This document shows positions 32,713-62,150 of a DNA stretch of 64,000 bases, one piece after another (the stretch's first letter is position 1; the number at the start of each line of letters is the position of its first letter). Source of the stretch: Alphaproteobacteria bacterium (GTDB lineage: Bacteria; Pseudomonadota; Alphaproteobacteria; Micavibrionales; Micavibrionaceae); assembly GCA_021775965.1 (NCBI GenBank), contig JAJFGV010000043.1, forward strand, positions 62,001 to 126,000. Reading direction: 5' to 3'. The notes under the pieces are model-generated. The model searched no databases, was not told where the DNA came from, and saw nothing but the letters and a program-made list of their open reading frames with translations. The translations under genes were made by a program, and so were the position numbers.

Positions 32713-32749
32713 AACAGGGAAATAATTTTTGCAAGGGAATCGAAACGGC

Positions 32750-34429
32750 ATGGCTTCTTACGAATATATTTATACGATCAGTGGACTGACCAAATCCTAT
32801 GGCGGTGGGAAAAAAGTTCTCGAAGACGTGACGCTTTCGTTTTTGCCTGGCGCCAAGATCGGTGTGCTGGGGCCCAACGGCGCAGGTAAATCGACGCTGC
32901 TGAAAATCATGGCAGGGGTCGATAAGGATTTTCAGGGCGAGGCATGGGCCGCAAAAGGCGCGCGTGTTGGTTATCTGGAGCAGGAACCACAGCTCGATCC
33001 ATCCAAAACCGTGCAGGAAAACGTGATGGAAGGTCTTGGCGATGTCAAAGCCAAGGTCGATCGTTACAATGAAGTCACCGCCGCGATGGCCGAGCCCGAT
33101 GCCGATTATGATTCCCTGATGGAAGAGATGGGAACGCTGCAGGAAGAAATTGATGCTGTCGATGGCTGGGAGTTAGAGCGTACCATTCAAATCGCGATGG
33201 ATGCCCTAAGATGCCCGCCGGGCGATTCAAAAATTGATAATTTATCCGGCGGGGAAAGAAGAAGGGTTGCACTTTGTAAGCTTCTGCTTGAAAAACCTGA
33301 TCTGCTATTGCTTGATGAGCCTACAAACCATCTCGATGCCGAAAGCGTAACCTGGCTGCAAAGATTCCTATCCGAATATTCGGGCGCTGTTATCATGGTA
33401 ACGCATGACCGGTATTTCCTTGATAATGTTACGGGCTGGATCCTTGAGGTTGCCCATGGCAATTGCATTCCTTACGAGGGCAATTACTCCGCCTATCTCG
33501 AGGTTAAACGCAAACGTATGGAGCAAGAGGACAAGCAGCAGGAGAACCGCAAAAAAACACTGGCGCGTGAGCTGGACTGGATGGGGCAAAGCCCGTCGGC
33601 GCGGCGATCAAAATCCAAGGCGCGGATCAATGCCTATCACGATTTGGTTGCGGAATCGGAAAAACTCGACAAGCGTGGCTGCCAGATTGTTATACCAACA
33701 CCGCCGCGTTTGGGCGATTTGGTGATCGAAGCCAAAAACATCCGCAAAGGCTTTGGCGATCATCTTTTAATCGAAGATTTATCCTTCAAATTGCCACCGG
33801 GCGGTATTGTTGGTGTCATTGGTCCAAACGGTGCCGGGAAAACAACGCTGTTTAAAATGATCACCGGCGTGGAAAAACCTGATGAAGGCGAATTCAGTGT
33901 CGGCGATACCGTCAAGCTTGGCTATGTCGATCAAAGCCGGGATTCCCTCAATGCTGACAACAGTGTCTGGGAAGAGATTTCCGGCGGCACGGATATGATT
34001 CAGCTTGGCAAAATTGAAATGCAAAGCCGCGCTTATGTTTCGGCGTTTAACTTCAGAAGCGCCGATCAACAACAACTGGTCGGCAATCTATCGGGCGGCC
34101 AACGCAACCGCGTTCATCTGGCCAAAATGCTGCGCAAGGAATCCAATGTGCTTTTACTGGATGAACCAACCAATGATCTGGATACCGAAACTTTGGCGGC
34201 ATTGGAAGAAGCGATTGAGCGCTACCCCGGCTGCGCGGTCATCATTTCTCACGATCGCTGGTTTTTAAACCGTCTGGTTACGCATATTCTTGCCTTTGAG
34301 GGCGATTCAGAAGTGGTCTGGTTTGAGGGCAATTACGAAGATTACGAAGCTGACTACCGCCGCCGCAAAGGTCAGGATGCAGACACCCCAACACGCATCA
34401 AATATAAGCCTTTACGCAAAGCCAGCTAA
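32750..34429 (+). CDS. ettA: Energy-dependent translational throttle protein EttA (ABC-F)
   Basis: A 559-residue ABC-F ATPase that binds the ribosomal E site and gates entry into elongation according to ATP/ADP ratio. Two nucleotide-binding domains have Walker A GPNGAGKS (about 40-47) and GPNGAGKT (about 360), with signatures LSGGERRR and LSGGQRNR. The N-terminus MASYEYIYTISGLTKSYGGG and the linker MGQSPSARRSKSKARINAYH are characteristic of EttA. The start at 32750 is chosen by family match and AAGGGA upstream; a TTG at 32729 is in frame. It is soluble, with no transmembrane domain. Confidence 0.95.
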   Translation: MASYEYIYTISGLTKSYGGGKKVLEDVTLSFLPGAKIGVLGPNGAGKSTLLKIMAGVDKDFQGEAWAAKGARVGYLEQEPQLDPSKTVQENVMEGLGDVKAKVDRYNEVTAAMAEPDADYDSLMEEMGTLQEEIDAVDGWELERTIQIAMDALRCPPGDSKIDNLSGGERRRVALCKLLLEKPDLLLLDEPTNHLDAESVTWLQRFLSEYSGAVIMVTHDRYFLDNVTGWILEVAHGNCIPYEGNYSAYLEVKRKRMEQEDKQQENRKKTLARELDWMGQSPSARRSKSKARINAYHDLVAESEKLDKRGCQIVIPTPPRLGDLVIEAKNIRKGFGDHLLIEDLSFKLPPGGIVGVIGPNGAGKTTLFKMITGVEKPDEGEFSVGDTVKLGYVDQSRDSLNADNSVWEEISGGTDMIQLGKIEMQSRAYVSAFNFRSADQQQLVGNLSGGQRNRVHLAKMLRKESNVLLLDEPTNDLDTETLAALEEAIERYPGCAVIISHDRWFLNRLVTHILAFEGDSEVVWFEGNYEDYEADYRRRKGQDADTPTRIKYKPLRKAS

Positions 34430-34584: not shown

Positions 34585-37515
34585 GTGGTGAGTATCAAAG
34601 TGCACGGCGTACAAGCAAAAAAAGTTGTAGGTTATATGGTAATGCCCGGCATTGTGCCACGGGCACGGGGCCTTTTTGCGTCGGGCTTTGGTTATCTGGC
34701 TTTTCTTATGGCCAATATCTATTCCATGGTTCGTCTACTACCCGCCAACCATCCTTATCTCTCTCCTGCCAATATCGGAAAATTTGGAATCCGCCACGTC
34801 ATTGCCGAAGCCGCCAATAACTTGGTTGTTAAAAAAGAAAATATCGACCAGCTCATTATTTTTGGAGCGCTACTTATTTCAACGGTGCTACTACTTCTCC
34901 AACTTCTTTTGTTGATTTGGTCCGTGGTGGTGCAACCCGCCATGGCATTTTCTATTTTTGAAATCAATACACCGTTTAGCGATATGGCTTATATGCTGCT
35001 CGATAGTGTTTTCGGCGTGCCCGATATGTTTAATTCCTGCGTTGCCCTAGCTGGCATATGTCCCAATGCGACAGCCGCAAGCCCGGCATTTCCATCTCCG
35101 TTTCATGAAGCTCTGCATTCGTTGTTTCAGTATTACTCCATTGGAATGTTGTTGATTGGTGTCCTGATCCTTTTGTATTTTATCGTCGTTGTCGTCGTTG
35201 AGACAGCCGTGACCGGTACGCCTTTCGGCCAACGCTTTGCCCATATATGGACGCCGATCCGATTGGTTGTGGCTATTGGTCTTTTGATCCCGTTTAACTA
35301 CGGTTTGAACAGCGGCCAATATATTGCTTTGTATGCCGCTAAATTTGGATCGAACATGGCGACCAATGGATGGCTTGTATTCAATGAGGGTATTGCGGAT
35401 AGGTCAGCTGCAATTGGCAATGGCGGCTTTAGCAATGCAGATAATCCTATCGGAGAAAAGTTTTCACTGGTCGGTCGGCCCAAACAACAAGACGTCAGTA
35501 CCATGGTACAAGCCATGTCACTTGTTCATGCCTGCGCCTATGCACATCGTCTCATGCAAGGAAATGATGTGACCTTTACCGGCCTTTCTGATCCCATAGA
35601 TTACGTTGATAGTGCCACCGCCCAGGTCCAGCCTTATCTCGTAAAATATGATTTTACCTGGTTGAACAACCATAGTGAACGAGAGGATGCCTTTACGATT
35701 GGTGACACCTATATCGACGCTCTGGATTTTTACGACAACAGCGATATCATTATCCGTTTTGGTGAATATAACCCCGAGAAATATCCGGATGAAAAAGGCA
35801 ATGTGTTTCCGACATGCGGCGAAATCAGAATTAAGGTCGGAGATCTCAGCCAAAAAGGATTGGGCAGTACCAATGGTGGGCCCGATTTTATGCTGGAGAG
35901 CTACTACAATATGGTCAAGGACATGTGGCGCAATAATGGAAGAATCTCGGATTTTGCTATTCGTATGGTGGAAGTAAACACAAATCTGGATGCAGACCTG
36001 GCCTGTTCGGTTGGGTGTGTGGGTGGCAGTGATCTGCCGGTTTGTAGTGGCATAGTCGTACCCTATGCAGAACCGCCTTGTGCAAATCAAATACCATCAG
36101 CGGCCTGGAAACAAAGTGTCACCAATGACTACCAGACCATCCATAATGCTAATGTTACGGAAGCCTGGTCAAAATTTGCGCAAGTGGGTGCTGATTTTAG
36201 TATGAGCAGTGAAATTATCGACCGCGGCTGGGCCGGTGCCGGCATGTGGTATAACCGCATCGCGCAGCTTAACGGCGCCTTCATTACGTCCGTTCTCGAT
36301 ACGCCGACACTCGAGTCCTACCCTCGCGTCATGGAAGATGTGCGCGCCGAAAACCGCAAGGAAAATGCAACCATTAAAATCAATGACCAGTTCAAGCCAA
36401 ACCTTGCGGGCGGAAGAGCTATAGAGATTGACGGTGGTGCCAACGCACTCGAAATTGCCAAAGCCCTTAACGCGGTCTACGAATACTGGAACAAGGAAGG
36501 CACGAATATGGCCGATCCGGAAAAAGTTATTTCCGGAAATATTTTTACTGATGCCATGAACATGCTGTTTGGAACAGCCGGAATTTTTGCCATGCGCAGT
36601 GAAAACCTTCATACGCACCCGCTGGCACAGCTTGTGAGTGTCGGCAAGGGTTTGGTAGAAGCCGCCGTACGCAATATGGCGACCTCTGCTGTTACAGCGT
36701 TTCTTGGTGGTATGGGCTCTGCTCTTGGTGTGCAGGGCTCCGGCGCTGTTAGCGCCGCTGCCGGGTTTTTCTCATCAACAGCATTCATAGGCCTGACGGC
36801 GGGTGTCGTCTTATTTTACGTTTTACCGTTTCTGCCTTTCGTGTACTTCTACTTTGCCGTGGGGTCATGGGTTAAAAGTATTTTCGAAGCTATGGTCGGC
36901 GTGCCGCTCTGGGCTCTGGCACATTTAAGAATAGACGGCAACGGTTTACCGGGTGATTCCGCGGTGAATGGGTATTTCCTGATATTTGAAATTTTTGTCA
37001 GGCCCATTTTAACCGTCTTTGGACTGATTGCCGCGATTACGATCTTTACCGCGCAAGTGCGTATTCTTAACGTGATATGGGATTCAGTCGTAGCAAATCT
37101 GTCAGGTTATGACGATAATTCGCCCACGCTTACCCTCTTCCCGGAGCTTATTAGCGTCAAGCGCAATGTGGTGGATCAGTACTTTTTTACAATCATATAT
37201 ACGATCGTGGTTTATATGCTGGCCACAGCCTCATTCAAATTAATCGACAAAATTCCTGATAATCTTTTACGCTGGATGGGCAATAGCGTGTCCTCCTTCA
37301 GCGATATCAATCAGGAAAATGTAGAAGGCCTCACAAAATATGCAGCCCTTGGCGGCGTCTCGGTTGGCCAGCAATTTGCCGGCGCAATTACAAAAGCGTC
37401 CGGCGGCGTTGGTGGTGCCGTTGGTAAAGGACTGAAAAGTGCGCCGGCAGGCTTAGGTAAGGGTGTTCGCGGAGGGCCGTCTGGTGCAGACGGCGGCGGC
37501 GGTGCTCCAGGATAA
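34585..37515 (+). CDS. DotA/TraY-like membrane protein, paralogue 1
   Basis: A 976-residue polytopic membrane protein of the DotA/TraY type, known from type IVB secretion and conjugation. N-terminal helices lie at about 30-55, 87-117, 185-215 and 225-245, then a region of about 450 residues presumably in the periplasm, then helices near 735-760, 795-830 and 865-885. The diagnostic stretch is FEAMVGVPLWALAHLRIDG before the GYFLIFEIFVRPILTVFG helix. The tail is rich in Gly (GKGLKSAPAGLGKGVRGG). Two paralogues follow directly. The start is uncertain: GTG at 34585 or 34588, no clear ribosome site. No other secretion gene is in the window. Confidence 0.75.
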   Translation: MVSIKVHGVQAKKVVGYMVMPGIVPRARGLFASGFGYLAFLMANIYSMVRLLPANHPYLSPANIGKFGIRHVIAEAANNLVVKKENIDQLIIFGALLISTVLLLLQLLLLIWSVVVQPAMAFSIFEINTPFSDMAYMLLDSVFGVPDMFNSCVALAGICPNATAASPAFPSPFHEALHSLFQYYSIGMLLIGVLILLYFIVVVVVETAVTGTPFGQRFAHIWTPIRLVVAIGLLIPFNYGLNSGQYIALYAAKFGSNMATNGWLVFNEGIADRSAAIGNGGFSNADNPIGEKFSLVGRPKQQDVSTMVQAMSLVHACAYAHRLMQGNDVTFTGLSDPIDYVDSATAQVQPYLVKYDFTWLNNHSEREDAFTIGDTYIDALDFYDNSDIIIRFGEYNPEKYPDEKGNVFPTCGEIRIKVGDLSQKGLGSTNGGPDFMLESYYNMVKDMWRNNGRISDFAIRMVEVNTNLDADLACSVGCVGGSDLPVCSGIVVPYAEPPCANQIPSAAWKQSVTNDYQTIHNANVTEAWSKFAQVGADFSMSSEIIDRGWAGAGMWYNRIAQLNGAFITSVLDTPTLESYPRVMEDVRAENRKENATIKINDQFKPNLAGGRAIEIDGGANALEIAKALNAVYEYWNKEGTNMADPEKVISGNIFTDAMNMLFGTAGIFAMRSENLHTHPLAQLVSVGKGLVEAAVRNMATSAVTAFLGGMGSALGVQGSGAVSAAAGFFSSTAFIGLTAGVVLFYVLPFLPFVYFYFAVGSWVKSIFEAMVGVPLWALAHLRIDGNGLPGDSAVNGYFLIFEIFVRPILTVFGLIAAITIFTAQVRILNVIWDSVVANLSGYDDNSPTLTLFPELISVKRNVVDQYFFTIIYTIVVYMLATASFKLIDKIPDNLLRWMGNSVSSFSDINQENVEGLTKYAALGGVSVGQQFAGAITKASGGVGGAVGKGLKSAPAGLGKGVRGGPSGADGGGGAPG

Positions 37516-37543
37516 TAAAAACGAACAGGAGAAACAATAAGGA

Positions 37544-40261
37544 ATGAATATACCGGTAACACGCAAAAATCTTTTTAGATACACTGTCATGCCGCAATTG
37601 CGGCCACGACTGGTGGAGCTTTTTACGTCCGGCTTCCAGTTCATTCCTTATTTTATCGCCTTGGTTTATATGACCGTACGGCTGTTGCCTGCCAATCACC
37701 CTTACGCAAATCCAGCCAATATCGGGCGCTTTGGAATTCACCATGTTATCAGTGAGGCCGCGAATAATCTTGTGATCAGCACAAAGAATATAGATCAGCT
37801 TGCCCTGTTCTTTTGTATTCTGGTCGGCATGGCTCTGGTATTCGTGCAGCTCTGTATGCTGGGACTGTCACTATTCTTTGGGCCTGCCATGGCAGCCATA
37901 CCCACCAGTTTCGCCGGTTTTTTTCTGCTAGATCCATTTTATGAACCACATAATCTGGCGAACATGATGCTCGATATGGTTTTTGGTGTGCCGGAAATAT
38001 TCAATTCCTGTATATCAACCCCTATTTTTTGCCAGGACATGAACGGTGCAACCATTACAGATGTCGCGCCGCTGACCATGGTTGGACCTCTCTCGCCAGG
38101 CGCAAATGCGATTTTTCCTTTCCCAATCCATGTCGGGCTGCATCAAATGTTTCAGGTTTACAGCATTGGTCTTTTGGTTGTCGCCGTCATTATTACCTCT
38201 TATTTTGTGATTACAATTGTGGCAGAAACGGCCGAGACAGGCACACCTTTTGGAAAGCGCTTTAACAAAGTCTGGGCACCCATTCGTATTGTAGTTGCTT
38301 TCGGTTTATTGGTGCCGGTGGGATATGGATTGAACTCATCACAGTACATCGTACTTTACGCCGCAAAATTTGGTTCCGCCTTTGCCAATAACGGATGGGT
38401 CATGTTTAATCAAAATCTGACGGGGACTTTCCTTGGAAGAGCAGAAACCCTTGTATCGAGACCGAACCTCCCTGAGATCAGCACATTATTACAGTTCTTT
38501 TATGTTGCCCGCACCTGCGCCGAAGCAGAATTGCAAAAAAATGAGACTGTTATCCGGCCTTACCTTGTCAGAAGCCCGACAGAAACACCGCCTGCCGTAG
38601 CGGTAGTCGCCGGCACCAGCTATGTTGCTGCGATCGGGTTCGCCAACGAGACAGAGACGGTTATAACAATGGCGTTCGGTCCGGCACCTGATGAAGCCGT
38701 TTACGGTCGCTATAAAGGCTTTGTCAAACCGGTATGCGGCGAGCTCACCTTTACCCTTCAGGAACCGCGCGCACCCGCAGATGCGGCGGACAACCCGGCC
38801 GCCCTCATTATGCAGCAATATTATTGGGACCTACTTAAGGAGCTATGGTACGAACATGCCGGATTTACAGTGTTTGGGACTTTTCCAAGGGATACGGTTC
38901 GATTGAATGGCCCATGGGACAAAGATTTTTCTATTGCCCCGCCTAATACGCAGCTTAAAAAGAGTTTAAAAGATTTTTACAAGGCCGAGATGGAAAGAGT
39001 TTTACTGCAGGCCGTCCAGGCACAGGCCGCATCAGGAAGATGGAATATGCCGACCTTCATAGAACGAAAAGGCTGGGGCGGCGCCGGCATCTGGTATAAC
39101 CGCGTCGCGGAAATGAACGGCTCTATCAGCGCGCCACTATTTAATGTTCCGGCTCCTAAAAAATATCCCTTTGTCATGGAGTATAACCGTCATAAACAGG
39201 AACAAAGCGGACAGGAAACAGTAATTACCGAGATATACCGAGCCTCTCTCCCCGATGGCACTTATGTCCCGCCGTTGCGACCCGAAGATCCGTCGATGTC
39301 TACTATTCTCAATGCCGCGAATGATTTCTGGCAAAAAGATGGGAGCAGCAGCACAACGCATTCCGAACCGACGGGTAATATTGTCATTGATACGATTAAC
39401 CTTATCTTTGGAACGGACGGGCTTTATTCCATTCGCCGAAATACAGATGTGCACCCTCTTGCCCAACTTGTTGGTGTTGGGCGTGCTTTGGTTGAAAGCT
39501 CTGTACGAAATCTGGGCATGGCCACAATTGGTGGCGCAGCCGGCTCAATCGCTGGCATTATGATTCCCTTTACCGGCCCCCTATCCGCTACGGCAGCACA
39601 ATTTTTGATAACCATCGCAGGAATTGGTCTAACGGCAGGATTTATTTTGTATTACGTCGTACCGTTTTTACCCTTCATATACTTTTTCTTCGCCGTAGGT
39701 GGCTGGGTAAAAGGTATTTTTGAAGCGATGGTTGGTGCACCACTTTGGGCCCTGGCGCATTTAAGAATTGACGGTAATGGGCTCTCAGGTCAGGCCGCTG
39801 TTGGCGGATATTTCCTGATATTTGAAATCTTCCTGCGGCCTATTTTAATTATCTTTGGCATGCTCGCCAGCATCTCGGTATTTTCAGCTCTTGTTACTGT
39901 TCTTAATCAGACCTTTGATCTGGTCACAAAAAACCTCGCAGGTTTTGATGTGGCTTCCGAATTAGGCGGTGTAGGACCGACAGAAATTGCATTTTACCGC
40001 GCACCCGTCGATGAATTTTTCTTCACTGTAATATACACTGTTATCGTGTATCTGATGGGCATGTCTTCGTTTAAATTAATTGATTTGATTCCGAATAATA
40101 TCCTGAGGTGGATGGGACAAAGTGTAGCCACCTTTAACGATCAGCGCGAAGACCCGGCACAAAGTCTGGTTGGCACAGCTTCTGTCGGTGCGCAACAAAC
40201 CCTGAGTCATGTGGGCGGCGGATTAAAGGGTCTGTTTAAAGGCGGAGGCGAGATAGGCTAG
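37544..40261 (+). CDS. DotA/TraY-like membrane protein, paralogue 2
   Basis: A 905-residue paralogue of the preceding protein with the same plan. The N-terminal block (RLLPANHPYANPANIGRFGI, EAANNLVISTKNIDQLALF) matches paralogue 1 nearly residue for residue, the middle is divergent, and WGGAGIWYNRVAEMNGS, HPLAQLVGVGRALVESSVRN and FEAMVGAPLWALAHLRIDG are shared. The C-terminus (SFKLIDLIPNNILRWMGQS) is also common to all three. It begins 28 bases after paralogue 1 with AGGAG and AAGG upstream. Probable inner-membrane part of a secretion or conjugation apparatus; the substrate is unknown. Confidence 0.75.
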   Translation: MNIPVTRKNLFRYTVMPQLRPRLVELFTSGFQFIPYFIALVYMTVRLLPANHPYANPANIGRFGIHHVISEAANNLVISTKNIDQLALFFCILVGMALVFVQLCMLGLSLFFGPAMAAIPTSFAGFFLLDPFYEPHNLANMMLDMVFGVPEIFNSCISTPIFCQDMNGATITDVAPLTMVGPLSPGANAIFPFPIHVGLHQMFQVYSIGLLVVAVIITSYFVITIVAETAETGTPFGKRFNKVWAPIRIVVAFGLLVPVGYGLNSSQYIVLYAAKFGSAFANNGWVMFNQNLTGTFLGRAETLVSRPNLPEISTLLQFFYVARTCAEAELQKNETVIRPYLVRSPTETPPAVAVVAGTSYVAAIGFANETETVITMAFGPAPDEAVYGRYKGFVKPVCGELTFTLQEPRAPADAADNPAALIMQQYYWDLLKELWYEHAGFTVFGTFPRDTVRLNGPWDKDFSIAPPNTQLKKSLKDFYKAEMERVLLQAVQAQAASGRWNMPTFIERKGWGGAGIWYNRVAEMNGSISAPLFNVPAPKKYPFVMEYNRHKQEQSGQETVITEIYRASLPDGTYVPPLRPEDPSMSTILNAANDFWQKDGSSSTTHSEPTGNIVIDTINLIFGTDGLYSIRRNTDVHPLAQLVGVGRALVESSVRNLGMATIGGAAGSIAGIMIPFTGPLSATAAQFLITIAGIGLTAGFILYYVVPFLPFIYFFFAVGGWVKGIFEAMVGAPLWALAHLRIDGNGLSGQAAVGGYFLIFEIFLRPILIIFGMLASISVFSALVTVLNQTFDLVTKNLAGFDVASELGGVGPTEIAFYRAPVDEFFFTVIYTVIVYLMGMSSFKLIDLIPNNILRWMGQSVATFNDQREDPAQSLVGTASVGAQQTLSHVGGGLKGLFKGGGEIG

Positions 40262-40300
40262 CGGTCAATTTTTTTAGATGATTTTTTTAGATGACAGGTA

Positions 40301-42997
40301 ATGGCAGTAACAAAAGGACAAATCGTAAAATATGCAATATTGCCAGGGTTCTGGCCGCGTTTTCGCGCCTTACTCGGCAATGGCTTTTACCACGTTGCCT
40401 ATTTTATTGCTCTTATTTACAGCAATGTCCGATTACTACCCGCGGGTCACCCTTATCTCAATCCTGACAACATTGGCCGTTACGGTTTGCGTCATGTTGT
40501 GGCTGAGGCCTCTAACAACCTTGTTTTTAGCAAAAAAAATATAGACCAGATTTTTGTATTCTTTATGATTCTGGCGGGCGTCGTGTTGCTTCTCATGCAG
40601 TTTGTTCTACTTTTTGTCTCTTTGCTCACCGGACCCGCCTTGGCCCTTGGCCTTGTGCCTTTTGTTGACTGGTTCCAAAACCCATCACAATATTCGCCAA
40701 GGGGCCCTTCTCAAGATATTGCCTTTATCATTCTGGACCGCGTTTTCGGTTTACAAGGGTTCTTTGATTCCTGCGTATCAAATTTAATATCTGTCTGTGT
40801 CGATGTTCGCGGCAATCCTCTTCCCCCATTGGCTCAATATCCAAGCTCTCTACATACTGCCCTGCACCAACTTCTGTTGTTTTATTCTAATGGTATTGTT
40901 CTCGTTGCCGTTCTGGTTCTGCTCTATTTCGTAACCACAATTGTCGGCGAAACGATTGCAGAAGGAACACCGTTTGGACAGCGGTATAACAAGGCCTGGG
41001 TACCAATCAGAATCATTATGTTTTTTGCCCTTATTATTCCCTTAAACATTGGGCAACAAAATGAAGGCCTAAACGGCGCTCAAATTATTACTTTCTGGAC
41101 GGCCAAATGGGGATCTAATATGGCCACTAATACATGGGGCCGGTTTAATCAGGCTCTGACAGGATCTTATCTTGGCGCCTTGTCGGGAACCGAAACCGCC
41201 AATTTGATAGCCACACCAAATGTTCCTGAGGTTGGCGCTCTGCACAAATTTTTCTTTACTGTTAAAATGTGCCAGATGGCTGAAAAAGTTGCCCACGATA
41301 TTGATATCAAGGCTTATGTTGTCAGAGAGCACACAACAGGTGTAGACCAAATGTTGTTTCAAGCTGCTGATGTTGATGATTTCAGGGCCATCCTGGCGTT
41401 TGCAAAAAATGGTACAATCAATATTCGTTTTGGTGAACTTGACCCAGACTATGCACAAGGACTTGCGCCCTCCAAATATAGTGATAAAAAGGGCTATGTT
41501 TTCCCCTGGTGCGGCGAAATAAAAGTTCAGCCAACCGATCTTGTTGAACCCGGTGCAATGGAAATTCAGGCCGACTACCTTGCAACAGTAGATCAGATGT
41601 GGCTCGGCACTGATGATCGTAACGCAGCCGTGTTATGCACTTTACGACGTACTTTTCCTATTAATGGCGATCCCTCTTGCCCTGAGTGGCCGGATAAGAG
41701 TCTTTTTCTATCAGAAATAAACTTTTATGAGACCTATGCTTTCTCCCTAATATCCGATCATATTAACACTCAGGTTCTGAACGGGGACTGGACTGTCCCA
41801 CAAGAATTGCTTGAAAAGGGCTGGGCTGGCGCCGCTATCTGGTACCACCGTATCGCCCGCATGAACGGCGCTGTCACAACAGCCGTTATAAACTTTCCAC
41901 GCCCCTATAAATATCCTTATGTGATGGAAGAGATTTATAAACAGCACCGCATGGAAAGCGAAGTCGTCTCGGGTCCCGGCAGGTTCGACCCGTTGCTGCC
42001 CGATGGCAAGCTCGCCGACTTCAAGCGCCCTTATGATCAAGACATAGCCGCCTCCCTATACAGGGGCTATAAATTTTGGGAAGAAGATGATGGTGGCGCT
42101 ACCTCACATAACAAAATGACAGACAGCATGATCATTAATGTCGTTAATACGATTTTTGGAACCAGCGGCCTTTTCGACATGCGCCACAATCCAACAACTC
42201 ATCCGCTGGCTCAACTCAGCTCGCTTGGTAAAGCCATGATAGAAGCCGCGGTGAGAAATGCATTGGTAGCCACTGGCGGAATAGTGGGCTCAAGCCTTAG
42301 TGATTTGTTTGGACCATTTGTCGGACAAATGGCTGGAGTCGGCACCAGTTTTTTCCTCAGCTTTGTACAAATGACTATTACTATGGGCGTTATTCTTTAC
42401 TACGTCCTGCCTTTTCTTCCTTTCATTTACTTCCTTTTTGCAGTCAGCGGCTGGATTAAAAGTATTTTTGAAGCCATCGTTGCCATGCCGTTATGGGCAC
42501 TTGCCCATATTCATATAGACGGGGAAGGCTTGCCGGGTCGCAATGCCGGAGCCGGTTATTATCTGCTGTTGGAAATACTTTTAAGGCCCACCCTTATTGT
42601 TTTCGGCCTTTTGGGAAGTATCATAATTTTCTCCTCCCTTGTTACTGTTCTCAATCAAGCTTTTGATATTATTGTCAGCAATGTCGGCGGCTTTGATGCA
42701 AAAGAGGAAGCAACCAATCCCGGCAAGATTGAGTTTTACCGCGCACCGATTGATGAATTTTTCTTCACAGCTATGTATGTTGTTATCGTATATATGCTCG
42801 CACAATCAGTCTTTAAACTTATAGACCAGATACCAAATAATATCCTGCGCTGGATCGGAAATACAACGTCCACCTTCCAGGAAGGTGCCGGCGATCCTGC
42901 CGCTGAACTTAGCAGTCAGGTTTACAGAGGTGGGCAATTAACCGTCGCCCAGGCATCGGGAACCATGCAGGGCATGCTGCCGCATCTCGTTTCATAG
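40301..42997 (+). CDS. DotA/TraY-like membrane protein, paralogue 3
   Basis: An 898-residue third paralogue. Shared segments are RLLPAGHPYLNPDNIGRYGL, EASNNLVFSKKNIDQIFVFF, WAGAAIWYHRIARMNGA, HPLAQLSSLGKAMIEAAVRN, FEAIVAMPLWALAHIHIDG and LIDQIPNNILRWIGNTTSTF. The central region has its own set of cysteines (for example VSNLISVCVD). It ends the triplet, 14 bases before the convergent mlaC. The spacing after paralogue 2 (39 bases) suggests one transcript. Whether the three form a hetero-oligomer or are alternatives cannot be read from sequence. Confidence 0.75.
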   Translation: MAVTKGQIVKYAILPGFWPRFRALLGNGFYHVAYFIALIYSNVRLLPAGHPYLNPDNIGRYGLRHVVAEASNNLVFSKKNIDQIFVFFMILAGVVLLLMQFVLLFVSLLTGPALALGLVPFVDWFQNPSQYSPRGPSQDIAFIILDRVFGLQGFFDSCVSNLISVCVDVRGNPLPPLAQYPSSLHTALHQLLLFYSNGIVLVAVLVLLYFVTTIVGETIAEGTPFGQRYNKAWVPIRIIMFFALIIPLNIGQQNEGLNGAQIITFWTAKWGSNMATNTWGRFNQALTGSYLGALSGTETANLIATPNVPEVGALHKFFFTVKMCQMAEKVAHDIDIKAYVVREHTTGVDQMLFQAADVDDFRAILAFAKNGTINIRFGELDPDYAQGLAPSKYSDKKGYVFPWCGEIKVQPTDLVEPGAMEIQADYLATVDQMWLGTDDRNAAVLCTLRRTFPINGDPSCPEWPDKSLFLSEINFYETYAFSLISDHINTQVLNGDWTVPQELLEKGWAGAAIWYHRIARMNGAVTTAVINFPRPYKYPYVMEEIYKQHRMESEVVSGPGRFDPLLPDGKLADFKRPYDQDIAASLYRGYKFWEEDDGGATSHNKMTDSMIINVVNTIFGTSGLFDMRHNPTTHPLAQLSSLGKAMIEAAVRNALVATGGIVGSSLSDLFGPFVGQMAGVGTSFFLSFVQMTITMGVILYYVLPFLPFIYFLFAVSGWIKSIFEAIVAMPLWALAHIHIDGEGLPGRNAGAGYYLLLEILLRPTLIVFGLLGSIIIFSSLVTVLNQAFDIIVSNVGGFDAKEEATNPGKIEFYRAPIDEFFFTAMYVVIVYMLAQSVFKLIDQIPNNILRWIGNTTSTFQEGAGDPAAELSSQVYRGGQLTVAQASGTMQGMLPHLVS

Positions 42998-43011: not shown

Positions 43012-43623
43012 TTATTCGCTGCGCAGATGAGCAAGAAGAACGTTTACTTTGCCGCCACCGCGCTGGATAACCGATGCAAAATCAGAACGTTGTGTCACGC
43101 TCATGCTAACACCTGCGACAATAACATCGATGATTTTATACTGACCACCTTTACGTCTGACGCGCCAGTCAACCTGTATTTCGGAACCACTACCAACGGG
43201 CAAAACATAGGACGTAACGATGGCATCAGTTTCACCATCGAGCCGCGCGCTGCGCACTTCGACTGTTTGCCCTTTATACTCGCCAAAACGGTTTGAGTAG
43301 ACTTCGACAACCATCGTTTCAAATAGCTTAAGGTATTCCTTGCGCTCCGCTTCATTGGACGCACGCCAATAACGACCCAAAGCAAAACGACCGATGGTCT
43401 TCATATCAAAACTGGTTTTAAGGAGCTTTTTAAACTTTGCCTGACGTTGGTCATGTGTGATGCTTTCATCACCCAAAAAATCAATCGCCCGTTGCGCCAT
43501 ACCGTTCACAAAAGCTTCCGCACCAGCTGTTTTATCGCCAGCCTGTACCGGCTGCGCATATAAACCACTGAAAAGTGCAAATACCACAAAAATAACAGCA
43601 AATCTTTTGGCCGGCATTGTCAT
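43012..43623 (-). CDS. mlaC: MlaC/Ttg2D phospholipid-binding protein
   Basis: A 203-residue periplasmic protein with signal peptide (cleavage near VQAGDK). The MlaC domain shows FKKLLKTSFDMKTIGRFALG, RYWRASNEAERKEYLKLFE and VDWRVRRKGGQYKIIDVIVA. It shuttles phospholipid between the outer-membrane MlaA complex and the inner-membrane MlaFEDB transporter. It lies downstream of mlaA, 83 bases apart, the typical alphaproteobacterial pair without mlaD, mlaE or mlaF beside it. Confidence 0.92.
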   Translation of the reverse strand: MTMPAKRFAVIFVVFALFSGLYAQPVQAGDKTAGAEAFVNGMAQRAIDFLGDESITHDQRQAKFKKLLKTSFDMKTIGRFALGRYWRASNEAERKEYLKLFETMVVEVYSNRFGEYKGQTVEVRSARLDGETDAIVTSYVLPVGSGSEIQVDWRVRRKGGQYKIIDVIVAGVSMSVTQRSDFASVIQRGGGKVNVLLAHLRSE

Positions 43624-61136: not shown

Positions 61137-62150
61137 ATGGGCGCTTTGACAAAAAAGAAAAGCGAAAGCAATACAGATCAGGATTTGGGCACAGCCATAC
61201 GGGCTTTGGAAACCGAAGCCGACGGACTTTTAAAACTCGCCAAATCTATAGATTCCCGTTTTGCAGATGCCATCACGGCCATTCATGACATGAAAAGCAG
61301 CGGCATTCAGGGCCGCCTGATTGTTGCCGGTATCGGCAAAAGCGGCCATGTCGCGCGCAAGATTGCCGCAACATTGGCATCGACCGGCACGCCGTCCTAT
61401 TTCGTTCATCCCGGTGAAGCCAGCCATGGTGATATGGGCATGATCACGAGCAACGATATTGTGCTGATGCTATCCAATTCGGGTGAAAATTCCGAGCTGT
61501 CTGATTTGATCCATTACACGCGCCGCTACAGCATTCATCTCATCGCCATGACGAGCAACGCACAAAGTACACTCGCGCAACATGCTGATACCTGTTTGTT
61601 GCTGCCCGATGTCCCCGAAGCCTGCCCCAACGGTCTGGCACCCACCACATCGACGACGATGATGATGGCGCTGGGTGACGCACTGGCCGTGGCATTGCTG
61701 GAGCGTATGGGCCTAACCAAAGAACAATACAAAGTCTTTCATCCGGGCGGAAAATTGGGCCAAAAACTGATGAAGGTTTCAGAGCTTATGATTGCCTATG
61801 ACGCACTTCCAATCGTAGCGCCAACTGCAAAAATGGACGAAGTTATATTGGTCTTGAGCGAAAAAAACCTTGGTTCGGTTTTGGTTGTCGATGATAAAGG
61901 CAACCTCAAAGGAATTGTTACGGATGGCGATCTCAAAAGACATATGGCACCTGATCTTTTGCAAAAATCTGTCACCGATGTCATGACAAGCGGACCAAAA
62001 TCAATCGAACGTGATGCGCTGGCCGTCGAAGCTTTGGACATGATGACAAAAAAACCGGGACATTATCTGACCAGTCTTATTGTCACGGATGATGGAAAAC
62101 TGGCCGGGATGATCCGTTTGCAGGATTGTCTCCAGGCCGGGATTGCCTGA
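61137..62150 (+). CDS. kdsD: Arabinose-5-phosphate isomerase (KdsD/KpsF/GutQ)
   Basis: A 337-residue isomerase producing arabinose 5-phosphate for Kdo synthesis. A sugar-isomerase SIS domain (GRLIVAGIGKSGHVARKIAA, SNSGENSELSDLIHY) and two CBS domains (about 210-265 and 275-335; LGSVLVVDDKGNLKGIVTDG) are visible. The metal-type histidines HPGEASHGDMGM and FHPGGKLGQKL are present. It begins the LPS run with lptC, lptA and lptB and supplies Kdo for the LPS these export. Confidence 0.94.
   Translation: MGALTKKKSESNTDQDLGTAIRALETEADGLLKLAKSIDSRFADAITAIHDMKSSGIQGRLIVAGIGKSGHVARKIAATLASTGTPSYFVHPGEASHGDMGMITSNDIVLMLSNSGENSELSDLIHYTRRYSIHLIAMTSNAQSTLAQHADTCLLLPDVPEACPNGLAPTTSTTMMMALGDALAVALLERMGLTKEQYKVFHPGGKLGQKLMKVSELMIAYDALPIVAPTAKMDEVILVLSEKNLGSVLVVDDKGNLKGIVTDGDLKRHMAPDLLQKSVTDVMTSGPKSIERDALAVEALDMMTKKPGHYLTSLIVTDDGKLAGMIRLQDCLQAGIA

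Follow-up and report, generated by a model that had tools for sequence, protein, structure and literature searches.

Three tandem DotA paralogs in a Micavibrio relative, probably differentiated subunits of a single chromosomal Dot/Icm-type system

Why would a bacterial chromosome carry three DotA-like genes in a row, set among housekeeping genes, when DotA is normally a single-copy polytopic protein of type IVB secretion and Legionella has one? The question is raised by a stretch of 64,000 nucleotides (hereafter the window; positions 62,001 to 126,000 of contig JAJFGV010000043.1, G000:C60:62001-126000 in our numbering) from an alphaproteobacterial genome of 2.93 Mb in 122 contigs that is 99.2% complete. 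The closest named relative is Micavibrio sp. DHS20C02, with 74% identity over the second protein of the triplet and, judging by the names of its relatives, the source organism would be a predator. The answer that we favour is that the three genes probably encode differentiated channel subunits of the DotA (VirB6) class, all belonging to a single Dot/Icm-type (type IVB) system encoded on the chromosome. To our knowledge, the mechanism by which Micavibrio kills its prey from outside is unsettled, and a Dot/Icm-type system with three DotA proteins conserved across a family would be a direct candidate for the weapon of Micavibrio-type predators. The comparison covered 58 relatives, including 37 genomes of the Micavibrionaceae-type family, labelled f1 here; the window's genus is represented by G000-G003.

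The three genes lie on the forward strand at 34585..37515 (slot 1; 976 aa, GTG start), 37544..40261 (slot 2; 905 aa) and 40301..42997 (slot 3; 898 aa), and the list of open reading frames (ORFs) leaves gaps of 28 bp between slots 1 and 2 and of 39 bp between slots 2 and 3. All of them exceed the cut-off of the NCBIfam profile TIGR04346 DotA_TraY, at 225-263 bits against 100 (250.2, 263.2 and 224.9 bits for slots 1 to 3, respectively); a Pfam scan of the three proteins gave no match. The slot 2 protein matches the DotA of PDB entry 9ngy by phmmer (E 2.5e-18), and its AlphaFold model (predicted local distance difference test 76.4, 38 sequences), compared with the PDB by Foldseek, has Legionella DotA (9ngy) as its sole match at E<=0.001 (E 2.7e-12), in a loose superposition (template modelling score 0.44-0.46, root-mean-square deviation 14.6 over 955 columns). 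Profile and model thus agree with the initial annotation, made from the DNA letters, which had placed the proteins in a DotA/TraY-like family.

That annotation had also described three consecutive proteins of 976, 905 and 898 residues with common N-terminal, central and C-terminal blocks around divergent middles, and both features were recovered, the motifs with few substitutions. RLLPANHPY and EAANNLV are each found in two of the three proteins and are replaced by RLLPAGHPY and EASNNLV in slot 3; the central motif reads W(A/G)GA(G/A)xWY(N/H)R, and towards the C-terminus FEAMVGxPLWALAH is present in two proteins and FEAIVAMPLWALAH in the other one, as LRWMG is in two and LRWIG in the remaining one. 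Pairwise identity amounts to 40-43% of aligned positions. In slot 2 numbering it is 47-54% over residues 1-290, 27-32% over residues 291-635 and 48-56% over residues 636-870, so the divergence of the middle is real. According to hydropathy this middle sits between membrane segments; it should be periplasmic, oriented towards an IcmX-like partner.

A second point of the initial annotation, that the triplet occurs without other secretion genes, is contradicted by the rest of the genome. A Dot/Icm-like locus lies at about C60:286000-314000, on the same contig and some 180 kb from the triplet, and encodes a DotO-like ATPase, IcmJ/DotN, a TraQ/DotE-like protein, DotF-like and DotG-like proteins, DotH, DotI and then DotB, DotC and DotD; a thioredoxin-fold protein and an SLT transglycosylase are encoded there as well. 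DotL and DotM are found on contig C22. Pfam cut-offs are passed by DotC (264 bits), DotD (114 bits), DotH (251 bits), DotM (162 bits, PF23127) and DotI (220 bits), the last of which also passes its NCBIfam cut-off with 205.6 bits, and DotL matches the solved Legionella IcmO (PDB 6sz9) at E 1.6e-151. Other components score lower: IcmJ/DotN reaches 99.5 bits against a cut-off of 100, the TraQ/DotE-like protein 47.6 against 80, the DotG-like protein (170 bits, E 7.3e-50) stays below both its NCBIfam and Pfam cut-offs, and DotB (354 bits, E 8e-106), scanned as a fragment, stays below that of NCBIfam. The DotO-like protein (1002 aa) was assigned by eye on its Walker motif and position, with no family or PDB match. 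The genome-wide search for partners that the annotation had proposed yielded DotC and DotD above the Pfam thresholds, IcmO/DotL by its match to the solved structure, and DotB and the DotG-like protein below the NCBIfam thresholds. In the same locus, the 583-aa TraQ/DotE-like protein (L028:1061-2812) appears by eye to contain several pilin-like hydrophobic repeats, and a related 142-aa protein adjoins it.

Across f1, several DotA copies generally accompany a DotH that is never double. Within f1 the DotA profile has at least three matches in 36 of the 37 genomes (the fourth and fifth matches include fragments) and none in G026. DotH (E<=0.001) is present once in 51 of the 58 relatives, including 32 of the 37 in f1, is without match in seven (G017, G018, G022, G031, G034, G042, G054) and is double in none; in the window's own genome a looser limit gives a second DotH place, of 12.5 bits and below cut-off. 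DotI has matches in 57 of the 58, weak in G017, G031 and G034, and this distribution, together with that of DotH, fits vertical descent and speaks against conjugation. The coupling-protein family likewise has matches in 57 of the 58, as a rule a single match of about 40 bits, inside an open frame several hundred residues long; of these copies that of our own genome is confirmed, and the family also has matches in 4 of 14 control genomes. More widely, 17 of 387 genomes of the class have any DotA_TraY match, five of them in f1. G026 is a single contig of 2,456,634 bp (L149; 89% complete) with dotI, dotH, dotG and five TraW-like genes and no DotA; true loss of DotA was considered and set aside, since MlaA is unmatched as well (in a search without positive control) and the assembly may thus lack the DotA site.

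Counted over the 71 named loci plus the window, complete arrays comprise three DotA ORFs in 51 cases and four in six; the other 15 loci are incomplete. Neighbouring DotA ORFs are separated by less than 100 bp in 128 of 137 gaps, with a median of 25 bp, which makes the genes operon-like; from this spacing they are probably co-transcribed. The history of the copies was followed in a FastTree analysis of 184 DotA proteins from the 51 triplets, the six four-gene arrays and seven single copies. The single-copy proteins form one side of a branch with support 98, in which two long single-copy rows are possibly wrongly joined. On this tree, eight changes are required to account for the slot assignments of the 153 proteins from triplets, the minimum possible being two, and each label alone requires 7-9 changes against 45 in shuffles; the window's slot 1 and slot 3 proteins cluster with the slot-1 and slot-3 proteins of relatives. 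Certain residues are also diagnostic for slots, such as those at 252 (A/A/F) and 791 (W/F/F); they were read from 30 triplets in the part of f1 to which the window belongs, with 21 deeper triplets left out. Slots 1, 2 and 3 are thus largely orthologous across f1, the triplication being old in the family and the slots mostly kept. The suggestion in the initial annotation of exchangeable surface domains fares accordingly: the middle does lie between membrane segments, while the tree shows mostly stable slots with some re-duplication and no frequent exchange.

A second tree (68 proteins; quick search, several long branches) puts the 40 f1 rows on one side of a branch with support 100. Here DotA copies group with their own kin in G050 (four copies), in three genomes of family f5 (two each), in G244 and G317 (two nearby copies each) and in G141, whose two copies are about 106 kb apart, so that DotA has multiplied several times. 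In G050, from a sister family, the locus L157 (G050:C4:109000-125000) holds a row of four DotA genes (976-1396 aa) that apparently arose by an expansion distinct from the one in f1.

The place of the triplet in the chromosome can be related to this history. The initial annotation had put it amid housekeeping genes, ettA and mlaC, and the Pfam assignments of the flanks agree: MlaC, MlaA, two LptF/LptG proteins, an M17 aminopeptidase, HolC and an ABC-F-type ATPase, for which the name EttA is given by eye. The ATPase gene (32729..34429, forward strand; two ABC_tran stretches and ABC_tran_Xtn) precedes the triplet and mlaC (43012..43623, reverse strand; MlaC, 140.4 bits) follows it; both lie outside the system and serve as markers of a conserved site. 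The annotation had further seen no icm/dot partner nearby, and at the scale of the window this stands, since tblastn (E<=1e-3) with 19 dot-locus proteins, DotL and DotM excluded, found none of them in the window or in its flanks, searched over 12 kb on the near side and 14 kb beyond its end; for the contig as a whole it does not. Detection of mlaC by tblastn succeeded in 50 of the 71 named DotA-carrying loci, the misses including contig-end cuts and some deep lineages. In G043, a sister-family genome whose DotA match is single, the genes run lptF-lptG-mlaA-mlaC-(596-aa gene)-dotA-(DotF-like)-dotG-dotH-dotI. In G020, an f1 genome, a stretch of no more than 24 kb takes in the triplet, dotI-dotH-dotG and four TraW-like genes, with unrelated genes interspersed. 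The simplest reading of these two genomes is that the triplet remained at an ancestral dot site near mlaC while the other dot genes moved away, which would account for its housekeeping setting. The starting point would be one dotA at the mlaC site, which triplicated early in f1 and whose three slots have largely been retained.

DotA is not the only multiplied part. Divergent from dotI, at L028:7813-13619 (G000:C60:297812-303618), lie three tandem paralogs, X1-X3, of 461, 442 and 1021 aa, which are 41-53% identical where aligned and probably secreted, their hydrophobic starts resembling signal peptides by eye; X3 has a long N-terminal extension. No meaningful Pfam or NCBIfam match was obtained for these proteins, nor a PDB match for X2, the one searched, and a 29-row profile of the family gave chance-level matches to the PDB. 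A table in the accessible part of PMC12624023 equates TraW with IcmX and VirB5, and TraY with DotA and VirB6. Two of the 29 X members match the NCBIfam TraW profile (best E 1.9e-6); NF033888 conj_TraW has matches in five of the 58 genomes (best 27.5 bits against a cut-off of 100) and none in our own, each of the five places falling on an X-family protein. Comparison of X with eight plasmid TraW proteins by hhalign scored 34.8 (E 0.0012, probability 19%, 253 columns), above the maximum of 80 shuffles (21.1) and the reversed control (15.0); with a single TraW the probability was 0.6% (E 0.09), and a profile of the eight TraW proteins gave nothing significant against X proteins among the matches listed (best E 0.052). 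A predicted model of a G020-type X protein, built on three sequences, had a mean confidence of 34.4 on the scale used above. Taken together, kinship of X with TraW/IcmX (VirB5-class) proteins is quite likely.

The X-family profile matches 47 of the 58 relatives and 34 of the 37 in f1, with 2-7 matches per matching f1 genome, fragments counted; the window's genus, G000-G003, has three TraW-like matches each alongside its DotA triplets. In other families, G037 has two X genes beside apparently one DotA and G047 one X beside a single DotA; since X copies also stand beside a single DotA, the expansion of X does not depend on the tripling of DotA. One-to-one pairing of DotA and TraW-like proteins was rejected as a rule, given the f1 counts of 2-7, three f1 genomes with none and the two against one of G037. 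Both halves of a DotA-IcmX protochannel may have been multiplied on one machine.

How one machine might use three DotA proteins is suggested by Legionella, where, according to the accessible parts of two papers, DotA and IcmX form a pentameric axial protochannel that widens upon activation (PMC12857230, PMC12981334); DotA-IcmX is named the gatekeeper of the Legionella machine in the title under which Yue et al. 2025 (PDB 9ngy, 9nh0) is cited. The present system is alike in the sequence family of its DotA proteins and, loosely and for slot 2, in their fold, and in having DotC, DotD, DotH, DotI, DotL, DotM and likely DotB, DotG and DotN; it differs in its three diverged DotA proteins, far from the remaining dot locus, and in its several TraW-like proteins. 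All three DotA proteins very likely serve one machine, probably as differentiated subunits for effector delivery. A hetero-oligomeric DotA channel, which the initial annotation had raised, is reasonable because the three slots have long been retained and DotH is never double. The paralogs could join a mixed pentameric ring, a proposal that we advance tentatively, with periplasmic tops meeting the likewise multiplied TraW/IcmX-like proteins. More speculative is the full arrangement of a heteromeric axial protochannel with several TraW/IcmX-like tips, asymmetric or combinatorial, within a single-DotH envelope complex and used against diverse prey. A naturally multiplied gatekeeper part would let one study what determines channel composition, symmetry and the range of substrates or prey.

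The single DotH beside three DotA proteins also fits three interchangeable homo-oligomeric rings, each taking its turn in a shared Dot/Icm envelope according to substrate, prey or life phase. The most divergent region is the very one expected to meet IcmX and substrates, TraW-like proteins are several too, and DotA has multiplied separately in other alphaproteobacteria; against such rings, the close spacing of the genes suggests simultaneous expression, and DotA and TraW-like gene numbers show no fixed match. We hold homo-oligomeric rings to be possible, but somewhat less likely than a mixed ring.

Several results weigh against three differentiated subunits of one Dot/Icm-type system. The triplet reaches 153-181 bits with the Legionella-type DotA equivalog NF033886, whose cut-off is 500, and is thus, by profile score, in the DotA family but outside this equivalog. 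DotH of our own genome has no NCBIfam match, DotD (84.9 against 140) and DotM (152 against 230) miss their NCBIfam equivalog cut-offs, as do several further dot-locus proteins, and the DotF-like protein is weak (26 bits against 200). Slots are not fixed, as four-gene arrays make up 6 of the 57 complete ones and slots were re-duplicated in some lineages, and TraW-like copy number is not fixed at three. Partial correlations between slots (0.29-0.52 over 29 loci) do not stand out from LptG-LptF (0.47) and EttA-LptG (0.52), comparison pairs that are not known partners. Lastly, 5 of the 36 triplet genomes have no DotH match, three of them being 77-84% complete, G031 100% and G034 97%. These five genomes, and the dot-free window and near flanks, would suit an orphan transporter that has nothing to do with secretion, or a relic lacking its machine. 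Such an origin is hard to reconcile with the Dot/Icm-like locus and the DotL-DotM pair of the same genome, with DotA adjoining dot genes in G020 and G043 and with open frames in nearly all DotA proteins of relatives among the matches listed, and we regard it as very improbable; the complete absence of type IV secretion genes from all triplet genomes, which the initial annotation had envisaged as fatal to its assignment, did not occur. In G031 and G034 the triplet is accompanied by no DotH, no TraW-like protein and a partial, weak DotI; either the rest of the machine was lost or binning left a gap.

What would a system with three differentiated DotA subunits deliver? Proteins to prey, and not DNA among kin, is the fairly likely answer, because the relatives are predators, DotL and DotM form a pair and no relaxase was found among the dot-locus proteins scanned, which are part of the region's ORFs. 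The conjugative type IVB TraY-TraW of IncI/IncM plasmids belongs to the same DotA_TraY family, and X weakly resembles its TraW; in contrast, the window's system is chromosomal, is kept across f1 and showed no such relaxase. A plasmid search for DotA found 3845 places in 3817 records, all below 60% identity, so that nearly all these plasmids have one TraY place; a plasmid-borne triplet was rejected, as plasmids hold just distant TraY. Further coupling-protein (TraG-D_C) matches on G000:C34, C46 and C51 suggest separate conjugative elements in the genome. That the DotA proteins are themselves the cargo, released and inserted in prey membranes as pores and diversifying with the prey, is unlikely: their middle regions are indeed the most divergent, but the two membrane blocks, like the slots, are well conserved, and nothing in the analysis points to export.

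Counts of pT4SSi for seven genomes of Micavibrionales were given in a survey of 2022 (PMC9418006), so that systems of this class in the same order are already in print; its accessible part does not include DotA copy number among its details. The genome paper of M. aeruginosavorus ARL-13, a cultured predator with the genus name of the nearest relatives, states that evidence for secretion systems of types III and IV is lacking (PMC3189940); unlike in that report, the single-contig relative G024 has both the triplet and the dot locus. No description of a DotA triplet was found in the open-licence literature by title and abstract. As a minor observation, flgK and a flagellin-C (flgL-like) gene directly adjoin TraW-like genes at L028:13765-17378, and flagellar genes were also seen by eye near TraW-like genes in L146, L149, L155 and L156.
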